Below, one piece after another: positions 32,267 through 36,237 of a stretch of 64,000 nucleotides of DNA. Positions within the stretch are counted from its first letter, which is position 1. Each line of letters starts with the position of its first letter. The stretch spans positions 304,611-368,610 of the forward strand of contig CAIJYD010000078.1 of assembly GCA_903824785.1 (NCBI GenBank), given 5' to 3'. The position numbers and the translations under genes are program-made. The notes beneath the pieces are model-generated. The model saw only the letters and a list, made by a program, of their open reading frames with translations. It searched no databases and was not told where the DNA came from. This DNA is from an uncultured Bacteroidota bacterium (GTDB lineage Bacteria > Bacteroidota > Bacteroidia > Bacteroidales > VadinHA17).

Positions 32267-32299
32267 TCTGCGGTAATTATGAAATTTATCTTAAATTTG
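32267..32299 (+). promoter_or_regulatory. Probable promoter of pssA
   Basis: TAAATTTG (32292-32299) is a perfect -7 element and TCTG (32267-32270) sits at a slightly long spacing as a weak -33. Transcription would start near 32306, which rules out the ORF-track start at 32279 and supports the ATG at 32333. Confidence 0.5.
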
Positions 32300-32332
32300 C
32301 TTCCCTTCAGAATTAAGTTATCTCATTTCATA

Positions 32333-33052
32333 ATGAAATATATTCCAAACTTTATTACCTCCCTGAATCTTGCATCAGGCTTTTTTGCAATTATTTTTGC
32401 TGCTAACGGTGATCTGTTAAATGCCTCCTGGCTTATTCTTGCGGCAATGATCTTCGATTTTCTCGATGGTTTCTCGGCCCGGTTGCTGAAAGCTTATTCA
32501 GCAGTTGGAAAAGAACTTGACAGCCTTGCAGATGTAGTAAGCTTCGGTGTTGCACCTGGAATAATTATCTTCCAGCTTCTTAAGAATTCTCTCTCATTAT
32601 CTGAACCAGTCAGCTTATTCTCAGGTGGTATCCCAACTATGCTAATTCTTTTGATTCCTGCTGTAATGCCTGTTTGTGCAGCTCTCCGACTTGCAATTTT
32701 CAATTTAGACACAAGTCAGGCAACTATTTTTAAAGGTCTTCCTACTCCTGCCAATGCACTTGCAGTAATCTCTGTGGTTATTGCCGGAAATTATTCGCAG
32801 TCTCCGGTTTTCAGCTCATTTATTGCTTCACCTCTGTTACTGATAATCCTTACTGTTTCCCTATCATTATTGATGGTCAGCAGAATACCTTTGCTTTCTC
32901 TTAAGTTTTCAAATCTGAAAATTAAAGGAAATGAAGGAAGGTATATTCTTGTCGGAATGGTTTTGGTATCGTTACCCATTGCAGGCATCGCAGCTGCCAC
33001 TCTGATAATTCCCATTTATATTATTGCGTCCTTTCTGTCAATGCTCTTCTGA
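32333..33052 (+). CDS. pssA: CDP-diacylglycerol-serine O-phosphatidyltransferase
   Basis: PssA makes phosphatidylserine from CDP-diacylglycerol and serine in the inner membrane, feeding phosphatidylserine decarboxylase (psd, at 39.5 kb). The 239-residue protein starts MKYIPNFITSLNLASGFFA and has the CDP-alcohol transferase motif, split over DFLDGFSARLLKAYSAVGKELDSLADVVSFG (D-G-x2-A-R-x8-G-x3-D-x3-D), then about six more helices. The longer track start at 32279 is upstream of the probable transcription start. Confidence 0.93.
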   Translation: MKYIPNFITSLNLASGFFAIIFAANGDLLNASWLILAAMIFDFLDGFSARLLKAYSAVGKELDSLADVVSFGVAPGIIIFQLLKNSLSLSEPVSLFSGGIPTMLILLIPAVMPVCAALRLAIFNLDTSQATIFKGLPTPANALAVISVVIAGNYSQSPVFSSFIASPLLLIILTVSLSLLMVSRIPLLSLKFSNLKIKGNEGRYILVGMVLVSLPIAGIAAATLIIPIYIIASFLSMLF

Positions 33053-33057
33053 AAAAG

Positions 33058-33174
33058 TTATTCCTTTTCAGGGAATTTCTTTTCATAAGCAGATAACGCA
33101 AACTTAATTACAAACCAGCTTAATATTATAAAGCCTGGCCAGATAAGGTATTCAAGGATTTCACTTATATACAT
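33058..33174 (-). CDS. Small single-span membrane protein downstream of cydB
   Basis: A 38-codon frame absent from the ORF track reads MYISEILEYLIWPGFIILSW then FVIKFALSAYEKKFPEKE. It has a single hydrophobic helix (residues 8-28) and a positively charged C-terminal tail, the layout expected of a real small inner-membrane protein. It lies 131 bases after cydB on the same strand and ends six bases from the convergent pssA stop. Small helical subunits such as CydX accompany bd oxidases in other phyla, but sequence similarity to CydX is not evident. No strong ribosome binding site is seen. Confidence 0.5.
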   Translation of the reverse strand: MYISEILEYLIWPGFIILSWFVIKFALSAYEKKFPEKE

Positions 33175-33305
33175 TTTCTTTTGTCTTAATATCTGATTGT
33201 ATTATTATCGCTAAACTGTTTTCCGTAATCGTTCATCCGTTCTCATAATGCCACCTGCTGAAAACAAACCAGATGGCTATTCATTTATAGTTGTCCGAAT
33301 ATTAA

Positions 33306-34436
33306 TTAATAGACATGTTCATCTGAACTCATCTCCTCTTCCGTAATTTTATTGCTGTTAATTATTTTCCATGAATACCAGATATATGCCAGCACAAAAG
33401 GAATAAGGAATGAGACATACATCATAGTCTTCAGAGTAAACAGGCTCGATGATGCATTTATTATCGTAAGTGAACTCTGCAGATCGTACGAAGAGGGATA
33501 AAAAGAGGTTCCGTTAAAACCGGCCACCAGAAACAGGGAGAATACTGCAAGTACTGTTCCCGATCCGGAAAACCAGATCCCGTTAATATTTTTTCTGAAT
33601 AATGAGACGCCAATACCATATAATACCCCCACTACTCCGACCAGAAATATTATCAGAACTATTGGCATACCAATAAAATTCTGAAGATATTTATACTTCT
33701 CAGGTGAAACGATTCCAGTTACCTTATCGGCAGCAAAGCCGGTTGAGAAGAGAAGAGATATAACAAATGAAAGGAAAAAGATCAGAAACAGAATAGAATT
33801 TAATAATAATCTCTTTTTAGCTCTTTTAATAAGCTCTTCATTATCAATAGTATTCATAATGTATAACAATCCATTGACTCTTGCAAGAAACAGTACTGCA
33901 AAACCGAGTGCAAGGTTCCGCAGGTTCAGGAGGGCTTCAAGGCCGTACCACGGTGTTTCCCACTTCACCTGATTCATATCGTTGAGACTGAACTGAGAAC
34001 CGGTAAAAAAGGTGGCAACTGCTGCTCCGATAAGAAAAGGGCCGAGCGAACCATTCAGAAACAAAAATATATCAAAGGTCTTTTGTCCGAAAACATTGCC
34101 CTGTTTAGATCTGAATTCATAAGCCACTGCCTGAATGGAAAAGCTGAATAGTATTGCAATCCAAACCCAGTAGGCACCGCCGAAGCTTGTTGCATAAAAG
34201 AGAGGAAATGAAGCAAAGAAGGCTCCTCCGAAAGTGACCAGTGTGGTAAAGGTGAATTCCCATTTCCGGCCAAGAGTATTAACTATCATCGTCTTCTGAG
34301 AATCGTTCCCGGGAAGGGAAAAGATCAGCGACTGACCTCCCTGTACAAACATCAGAAATACAAGCAGGCTCGCCAGAAGTGAGACTATTATCCACCAGTA
34401 GTGCTGCAGGAACAGATGTGAAATCATTGTTGTCAT
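33306..34436 (-). CDS. cydB: Cytochrome bd ubiquinol/menaquinol oxidase subunit II
   Basis: CydB is the second subunit of the bd-type terminal oxidase that reduces oxygen at high affinity. The 376-residue protein has about eight or nine membrane helices, with the early LVFLMFVQGGQSLIF and WEFTFTTLVTFGGAFFASFPLFYATSFGGAYWVW segments typical of the family. It is 12 bases downstream of cydA and co-transcribed with it. In this phylum the oxidase is used for nanomolar oxygen respiration or oxygen scavenging in anaerobes. Confidence 0.95.
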   Translation of the reverse strand: MTTMISHLFLQHYWWIIVSLLASLLVFLMFVQGGQSLIFSLPGNDSQKTMIVNTLGRKWEFTFTTLVTFGGAFFASFPLFYATSFGGAYWVWIAILFSFSIQAVAYEFRSKQGNVFGQKTFDIFLFLNGSLGPFLIGAAVATFFTGSQFSLNDMNQVKWETPWYGLEALLNLRNLALGFAVLFLARVNGLLYIMNTIDNEELIKRAKKRLLLNSILFLIFFLSFVISLLFSTGFAADKVTGIVSPEKYKYLQNFIGMPIVLIIFLVGVVGVLYGIGVSLFRKNINGIWFSGSGTVLAVFSLFLVAGFNGTSFYPSSYDLQSSLTIINASSSLFTLKTMMYVSFLIPFVLAYIWYSWKIINSNKITEEEMSSDEHVY

Positions 34437-34448
34437 ATTTTTGTCCTC

Positions 34449-36005
34449 CTAATGTTTTGGTCCTGTTTTAATTTGTTTTACCATGATGGATATTTCTGAA
34501 ATAAGCAATACCGTGAAAAGAACTGCAAATAGAACAAAGGTGATAATCACCGATCCGGAACTGATTTTTGAAACAGCGCCGGATACCGGCATCAGATCCT
34601 GAATTATCCAGGGCTGGCGTCCCATCTCAGTAAGTATCCAGCCAAGTTCTCCTGCAATATATGGCAGAGGTATTGAAAGAAGCGCTATCCATAAAAACCA
34701 TCTTGTTTCTGTAATTGTCCCTTTGAACAGGAAGTACAGAGCCATTGAGAAGATCAGGATGAATAAAAATCCAAGTATCACCATAAGATGAAATGAATAG
34801 AATGTCGACGGCACATCAGGGACAACATCTTCAGGTCTGGCAAGTGAGGCATATCCGAAATATCTGAAGTAATCTGACTGAAACTCTTTGTCTTTAAACA
34901 AATTGCTTATCGTTCCAAGCTGTGCAGTGTCATTCGCCGACCGTGCAATTTTATAATCTTTCAGAACATTCCTGGCATACTGACCTCTCCTGATTTTTTC
35001 AGCTGAAGACATTATTCCCCTTTCCCCGTTCCCTGCAACATGATCGGTTATTCCGGCAACATAACCATCTTTATCCCCGCTTGTAAGAACTGAAAGCAGT
35101 CCCGGTATTTCAATCTTGAAAGCCAGTTCCTTATTTATTTTTTCTCCTGTTTTCGTATCAGCATCCTTAAGGAACCCTATTGCAATTAATCCGGCATTGC
35201 TTTTCCCCTGGTACAAGGCTTCCATAGCTGCAAATTTCACCGGCTGAACTTTTGATAATGTCCTTGCTGAAGAATCTCCTGTATAAGCAACCATAAGTGA
35301 AGATAGTAGTCCGAATATTCCGGCTATCAGAATGCTTCTGCGGGCAAACAGTTCTTCTCTTTTTCTTATAAGGAACCAGGAGCTTATACCCAGTACAAAC
35401 ATTGAGGCCAGTAGGAATCCCGAGGAAATTGTATGAAGAAACTTCTCAACTGCCACCTGATTAAACAGAACTGCCCAGAAGCTGACCATCTCATTTCTGG
35501 CTGTTTCGGGATTAAAAGCCATCCCAACAGGATTTTGCATCCAGGCATTGGCAACCAGGATCCAGAGTGCTGAAAGATTTGCTCCGATGGCCACCAGCCA
35601 TGTTGATGTCAGGTGAAACTTCCTGCTCACTTTATTCCATCCGAAAAACATAACAGCAACAAAAGTCGACTCCAGGAAGAAAGCAAGAATACCTTCAACA
35701 GCAAGAGGAGCCCCGAAAATATCCCCGACAAACCAGGAATAATTTGACCAGTTGGTGCCAAACTCAAATTCAAGAATTATCCCGGTTGCTACTCCAATGG
35801 CAAAGTTAATCCCGAATAGAGTCATCCAGAACCGGGTAAGGCGTTTCCATTCTTCACTGCCTGTCCTGACATAAATTGTCTCCATTATGGCAATGATGAA
35901 TGATAATCCAAGGGTTAACGGTACAAAAAGCCAATGGTAAATGGCTGTCAGGGCAAATTGAGCCCTCGACCAGTCAACAAGCGTAAAATCGATATTTTCA
36001 ATCAT
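34449..36005 (-). CDS. cydA: Cytochrome bd oxidase subunit I
   Basis: CydA holds haems b558, b595 and d and the quinol site. The 518-residue protein has the N-terminal SRAQFALTAIYHWLFVPLTLGL (haem His), VEKFLHTISSGF (second haem His), the FYSFHLMVILG segment for b558, and the GRQPW motif (ELGWILTEMGRQPWIIQDLM). The periplasmic Q loop (about residues 250-390) is of the short class. It begins within the end of the DUF4492 gene (overlap eight bases) and is followed by cydB. Confidence 0.96.
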   Translation of the reverse strand: MIENIDFTLVDWSRAQFALTAIYHWLFVPLTLGLSFIIAIMETIYVRTGSEEWKRLTRFWMTLFGINFAIGVATGIILEFEFGTNWSNYSWFVGDIFGAPLAVEGILAFFLESTFVAVMFFGWNKVSRKFHLTSTWLVAIGANLSALWILVANAWMQNPVGMAFNPETARNEMVSFWAVLFNQVAVEKFLHTISSGFLLASMFVLGISSWFLIRKREELFARRSILIAGIFGLLSSLMVAYTGDSSARTLSKVQPVKFAAMEALYQGKSNAGLIAIGFLKDADTKTGEKINKELAFKIEIPGLLSVLTSGDKDGYVAGITDHVAGNGERGIMSSAEKIRRGQYARNVLKDYKIARSANDTAQLGTISNLFKDKEFQSDYFRYFGYASLARPEDVVPDVPSTFYSFHLMVILGFLFILIFSMALYFLFKGTITETRWFLWIALLSIPLPYIAGELGWILTEMGRQPWIIQDLMPVSGAVSKISSGSVIITFVLFAVLFTVLLISEISIMVKQIKTGPKH

Positions 36006-36237
36006 GATTATCTGGTGAATTTATTAATTGATCCCGTACATACTCACTTCTCTGTTTTTCATTATCATATTTTTTCTGAAGAAAATCGGGGAAAAAGAAG
36101 AGCTTCAGAACCGCAAACATAATAAAAAGCTTTATTATGATTATTATCCAAACCTTTTTTCCCCATCCCGACATATTTCTGAAACCCTCATAATAAAAGC
36201 TGAGGAGCGCAGATATCAATGGAATATTATTCTTCAT
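35998..36237 (-). CDS. DUF4492 family small membrane protein
   Basis: The 79-residue protein has one clear transmembrane helix (WIIIIIKLFIMFAVLKLFFF, residues 30-49) preceded by FYYEGFRNMSGWGKKVW and followed by a charged tail, the pattern of DUF4492. The family is found immediately upstream of cydAB in Bacteroidota and Campylobacterota, and this copy overlaps the cydA start by eight bases. A role in assembly or stability of the bd oxidase is plausible but is inferred only from linkage. Confidence 0.82.
   Translation of the reverse strand: MKNNIPLISALLSFYYEGFRNMSGWGKKVWIIIIIKLFIMFAVLKLFFFPDFLQKKYDNEKQRSEYVRDQLINSPDNHD

Follow-up and report, generated by a model that had tools for sequence, protein, structure and literature searches.

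The cyd operon of the window

The window, a stretch of 64,000 nucleotides, carries the genes of a cytochrome bd oxidase on its minus strand. The first gene of the operon encodes a DUF4492 protein of 79 aa (35998..36237; PF14899, E = 2e-29) and overlaps the start of cydA by 8 nt. It is followed by cydA (34449..36005), encoding subunit I (518 aa; PF01654, Cyt_bd_oxida_I, E = 3.5e-168), and cydB (33306..34436), encoding subunit II (376 aa; PF02322, Cyt_bd_oxida_II, E = 3.5e-67). CydA is of the long Q-loop (L) type: with E. coli CydA (6rko_A) it forms a single uninterrupted alignment that includes the Q-loop. No CydX was found above cut-off in the window genome. Downstream of cydB, on the same strand, lies an open reading frame (ORF) of 38 codons (33058..33174; ATG at 33174, TAA at 33060..33058). 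Its product, MYISEILEYLIWPGFIILSWFVIKFALSAYEKKFPEKE, is a putative single-helix membrane protein, proposed here as a CydX-like small subunit of the bd oxidase. The original prediction had placed a 38-residue frame at exactly this position and on the strand of cydAB, which it left unnamed, and both points are borne out. It also had the frame filling the gap before pssA. The distance to the pssA-like gene is 5 nt, but that gene (32279..33052; CDP-alcohol phosphatidyltransferase, PF01066, E = 5.6e-17) is on the plus strand and outside the operon, and thus converges on the ORF rather than following it within the same transcript.

The cydB stop codon and the ORF are separated by 131 nt (33175..33305, minus strand). 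Scans of this gap returned no intrinsic terminator, no Rfam family and no unusual RNA structure, and its fold energy is ordinary (z -0.73). Since neither a terminator nor an Rfam family was found, read-through from cydB into the ORF is plausible. A scan for a dedicated ORF promoter gave no support, with models of the sigma-70 type only, which say little for Bacteroidota. The gap also contains a short hairpin without a T-run (33249-33276, minus strand; GCCATCTG ... CAGGTGGC).

A conserved small protein-coding gene

A search for homologues among 117 genomes of the family recovered strong matches in most members of the window's genus. In 30 loci extracted from this search, the frame is unbroken by frameshifts, opens with ATG and stops at residue 37-45. 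For these 30 sequences, which represent the window's genus, the median pairwise dN/dS is 0.16 and the pooled pN/pS 0.26. Column entropy is 0.61, 0.43 and 1.16 at codon positions 1, 2 and 3, respectively, a pattern that none of 20,000 permutations of the 30 sequences matched in extremity. Intact frames, low dN/dS and variation concentrated at the third position together argue for a translated protein under selection; judged by these sequence signatures, the ORF is a real small protein-coding gene. Nine close relatives that have lost the ORF and kept an intact cydB could be taken to point to a non-functional frame, arisen by chance or left as a decayed 3′ remnant, but conservation over many Bacteroidales families, the substitution ratio within the genus, an invariant proline and the unbroken frames leave this explanation with a negligible probability.

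The family shares the pattern M-Y-x3-I-L-x2-L-x-W-P-x2-I-x2-S-[YW], followed by a basic tail that includes a conserved acid. Across 117 operons, conservation reaches 100% for P13, 97% for I16, 96% for W12 and 94% for I6. Tyrosine or tryptophan occupies position 20 in 92% of them and glutamate or aspartate position 31 in 91%, whilst basic residues dominate positions 24, 28, 29 and 32. The distribution of charges suggests a topology with the N-terminus out and the C-terminus in. An AlphaFold2 single-chain model was obtained for one relative, in which cydA, cydB and the ORF stand in one frame (46 aligned rows, stop codons read as glycine). In this model the ORF part forms a confident helix behind a disordered linker (block pLDDT 78, 83, 90 and 69), and the helix breaks a few residues before the proline. 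The read-through model as a whole is mediocre (pTM 0.55) and its output does not include contacts, so that it supports a helix in the ORF product and nothing more.

Association with cydB in the Bacteroidales

Wherever the contig extends far enough, the family loci have the ORF just 3′ of cydB. A search of 393 genomes of the order, with a profile built from the window's genus only, matched 116 at E 0.05. For 57 of these matches cydB coordinates were listed, and in 52 cases the match follows cydB on the same strand at a distance of 63-484 nt, counted from where the profile match ends. The other five comprise one that follows a second cydB copy, one orphan (genome G450) and three weak matches (E > 0.005). 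At E up to 1e-3, the ORF occurs in at least 87 of 280 genomes with cydB vs at least 1 of 113 without it (Fisher p = 7.5e-14), both counts being lower bounds because the profile was built from a single genus. The lone match in the set without cydB (G246:C212:25974-26036, E 4e-5) may reflect an incomplete assembly or another orphan. In named Bacteroidales genomes, the ORF directly follows cydB in 48 of 50 loci, one of the two others being cut by the contig end and one an orphan (locus L114). Among cultured species, the ORF is carried by Labilibacter marinus, Prolixibacter bellariivorans and Prolixibacter denitrificans.

The ORF is present in 169 of 170 parsed operons, on the same strand and 3-229 nt (median 19) from cydB, with a length of 32-54 residues (median 38); most of these loci were picked for an ORF match, so the set is informative on how the genes are arranged but not on how often this arrangement occurs. 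DUF4492 was detected upstream of cydA in 156 of the 170, and the usual gene order is DUF4492(CydW)-cydA-cydB-ORF. A short one-helix ORF that adjoins cydAB, and is conserved there, is a mark of the small single-helix subunits of bd oxidases, and this is what these Bacteroidales operons contain. Two outcomes had been named in advance as speaking against such a subunit, lack of conservation in relatives and conservation apart from cydAB; the searches instead showed conservation of the frame in many Bacteroidales, with linkage to cydB in almost all relatives.

As far as the searches reach, the distribution is confined to the order. In a phylum-wide sample of Bacteroidota searched with a broad profile, there were no credible members outside Bacteroidales. 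Three weak out-of-order matches were rejected because they are chance frames antisense to an ATP-binding-protein-like gene and have no cydB in their vicinity, and four further weak ones are in genomes where tblastn found no cydB. No copies were found on plasmids. Within the order, the records of Bacteroides ovatus, B. finegoldii, Parabacteroides distasonis and Prevotella nigrescens have no ORF-like frame after cydB. A candidate for the expected counterpart in Bacteroidota is therefore present in many Bacteroidales, but was found in that order only, and not in Bacteroides, Parabacteroides or Prevotella. Closer to the window, the nine species of its own genus that have no ORF carry pssA closely behind cydB, and in a sister genus the place of the ORF is taken by a DAHP-synthase-like gene (identified by eye from the sequence). 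Several of the nine (loci L059-L067, e.g., L060 and L067) have G-rich short repeats between cydB and pssA, of the types AGGCGGCAGG and GCAGAGAGCGGAGAGC, which may mark the route by which the ORF was lost.

Retention of cydAB without the ORF, both in these nine relatives and in Bacteroides, Parabacteroides and Prevotella, means that the small protein is widespread in Bacteroidales yet dispensable. Two orphan copies (L085:6280-6381, in genome G450, and L114:5001-5105) are flanked by a meaB-type GTPase gene on one side and a sulfatase-type gene on the other. No copy of the ORF follows cydB in G450, where the gene thus seems to have been relocated and retained. A factor for assembly or heme insertion, acting transiently on CydA and absent from the mature enzyme, would account equally well for the small size, the operon position and the loss in some species bearing cydAB, and the two copies beside meaB, away from cydB, lend it some support. 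However, covariation with CydA at several helix positions (see below) better fits a stable interface, and a transient factor is considered very unlikely.

Relationship to known small bd oxidase proteins

None of 32 members of the ORF family gave an above-chance match in Pfam or NCBIfam, neither of which has a model for the family. Control CydX proteins match PF08173 and TIGR02106 at 3e-16 and 4e-19, whereas the ORF family members do not, and profile-profile comparison (hhalign) of the ORF family with CydX gives a probability of 5.6%. Nor does the family match PF14899 (DUF4492) or PF10617 (DUF2474). The family profile was also run against PDB sequences, which include the bd-I structures with their small subunits, and returned nothing up to E = 10, although very short chains are hard to detect in this way. 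A literature search, conducted mostly without subscription papers, found no report of this cydB-downstream protein in Bacteroidales.

Three of the known proteins, CydX, CydS and AppX, each sit on CydA as a subunit with one helix (PMC8951039). CydX/AppX (CbdX; PF08173, TIGR02106) resembles the ORF product in length, in its one helix, in the position of its gene directly after cydB, in the long Q-loop of its CydA and in an acid just past the helix. However, CydX begins MWYF.W.LG and the ORF family MY..IL..L.WP, and the W-P step of the latter is missing from the CydX proteins aligned. CydS of Geobacillus differs in that it belongs to a Bacillota enzyme of another subfamily, and the profile search of PDB chains gave no match to it. 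The Geobacillus enzyme has a short Q-loop. CydS does share the single helix and, broadly, the location on CydA predicted for the ORF product, and it is the functional equivalent of CydX (PMC8951039). CydZ (DUF2474, PF10617) also has a single helix with a tryptophan at its start, encoded downstream of cydB, but it accompanies a short-Q-loop CydA, whereas the Q-loop of the window CydA is long and PF10617 is unmatched by the ORF. Finally, CydW/DUF4492 (PF14899) is a small membrane protein of the same operon, but it is encoded by a separate, longer gene upstream of cydA, and no sequence relation to the ORF was found. The original prediction of a small-subunit candidate distinct from DUF4492 is supported in this respect. 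P. gingivalis has been reported to have no CydX, CydY or CydZ downstream of cydAB but to encode CydW, of 82 aa, ahead of cydA (PMC4668044); from position and size, we infer that the DUF4492 protein of the window corresponds to this CydW.

The closest parallel is CydY, encoded after cydB in Epsilon- and Deltaproteobacteria whose CydA has a long Q-loop and which have no CydX (Allen 2014, PMC4325964). It has a tryptophan at the helix start, and the same operons have a hydrophobic small protein upstream (PMC4325964). CydY of C. jejuni, renamed CioY, has 34 aa with conserved W, P and Y (Froschauer 2025, PMC11955535), and co-precipitates with CioA (PMC11955535). The Bacteroidales protein thus shares with CydY/CioY a length near 34 aa, one helix, a gene directly after cydB, a long-Q-loop CydA and the absence of CydX. 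It also shares the conserved W, P and Y (W12, P13 and Y/W20 in the ORF family), the tryptophan standing at the start of the helix, a correspondence drawn from the published description and not from superposed positions. The hydrophobic protein upstream of cydA has its parallel in the DUF4492 gene of the window operon, and the DUF4492 protein is perhaps the very one that Allen et al. noted. In Paraburkholderia, an NCBI model describes another small protein encoded upstream, CydP (locus L269). The differences are that the phylum is another one, and that CioY binding to CioA is known from co-immunoprecipitation whereas contact of the Bacteroidales protein with CydA is predicted. Given the similar position, motif and operon type, the ORF family is probably the Bacteroidales branch of CydY/CioY, an assignment of moderate confidence. 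The expectation that a Bacteroidota counterpart would be new therefore stands as far as Pfam and NCBIfam models go, but is weakened by these resemblances to CydY/CioY. A family unrelated to CydX, CydS, CydY and CydZ, which would have reached the CydX site on CydA independently, is conceivable but rather unlikely.

Predicted binding site on CydA and proposed role

Inter-protein covariation was computed from a small paired alignment of CydA, CydB and the ORF (152 operons, effective number 105) by low-rank ridge inverse-covariance with average-product correction. Among 26,820 pairs between the ORF and CydA or CydB, the top three are CydA V186-S9 (z 12.5), I227-S23 (z 8.8) and L234-S15 (z 8.6), where S denotes the ORF position. 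All three fall within CydA helices 5 and 6, the limits of which were set from the E. coli alignment and are approximate. When R223-S30 is added, the series of pairs is antiparallel to helix 6. The top pairs persist after removal of window-like sequences. When ORF sequences were reshuffled within clades, the maximum reached 10.8 and never equaled the top score, and all three top pairs fell in CydA 180-250 in 1 of 60 and 0 of 60 runs. A targeted test of the antiparallel helix-6 arrangement, a helix hypothesis borrowed from E. coli, gave p 0.03-0.08 on the full set. A scan for any diagonal was not significant in CydA or CydB (p 0.07 and 0.5), and neither were tests of a helix-5-parallel and a helix-1 geometry on the full set.

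The CydX of E. coli lies against helices 1, 5 and 6 of CydA and has a cytoplasmic C-terminus (PMC6853902), so that two of its contact helices, 5 and 6, coincide with the ORF covariation site. Some next-ranked covarying pairs, however, involve CydB (B51, B345 and B189). These pairs speak for a subunit located away from the CydX site, either on CydB or in the cleft of CydH (YnhF) between CydA helices 1 and 9, where it could gate oxygen access. CydH, a further small subunit that occupies a different cleft, is likewise a single short helix on long-Q-loop enzymes (PMC8951039). On the other hand, the three strongest pairs lie in helices 5-6, covarying pairs are not enriched in helices 1 and 9, and no PDB chain, including those of bd-I structures with small subunits, matched the ORF profile; a location elsewhere on the oxidase is accordingly improbable. 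The ORF product is very probably a CydX-like structural subunit of the bd oxidase and most likely sits at the CydX site, on CydA helices 5 and 6.

As a subunit at the CydX site, the protein would be translated from a cydW(DUF4492)-cydA-cydB-ORF transcript and inserted as a single-pass inner-membrane protein, with the N-terminus towards the periplasm and the positively charged C-terminal tail in the cytoplasm. Its helix would pack in the groove between CydA helices 5 and 6 beside heme b558, much like the CydX of E. coli. The kink of the helix and its contact surface are expected to come from the invariant W-P step and from the conserved Y/W. The Glu25 residue of E. coli CydX acts as a float at the surface (PMC6853902), and the conserved acid E31, just past the helix, could similarly hold the protein at the cytoplasmic face. 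In this position, the small protein would clamp the heme-bearing helix bundle and stabilize the assembled oxidase.

Cytochrome bd oxidase lets many anaerobic or microaerobic Bacteroidales use up traces of oxygen. Unlike P. gingivalis as reported, many other members of the order do have a small protein gene after cydAB, and the family gives a residue-level prediction of where its product binds CydA. Because the gene has been lost naturally, the purpose of the small subunit can be approached by comparing bacteria with and without it whose enzymes are otherwise alike. Should the origin of the family prove independent, small proteins that evolved separately in several phyla would have come to fill the same clamp position on bd oxidase.
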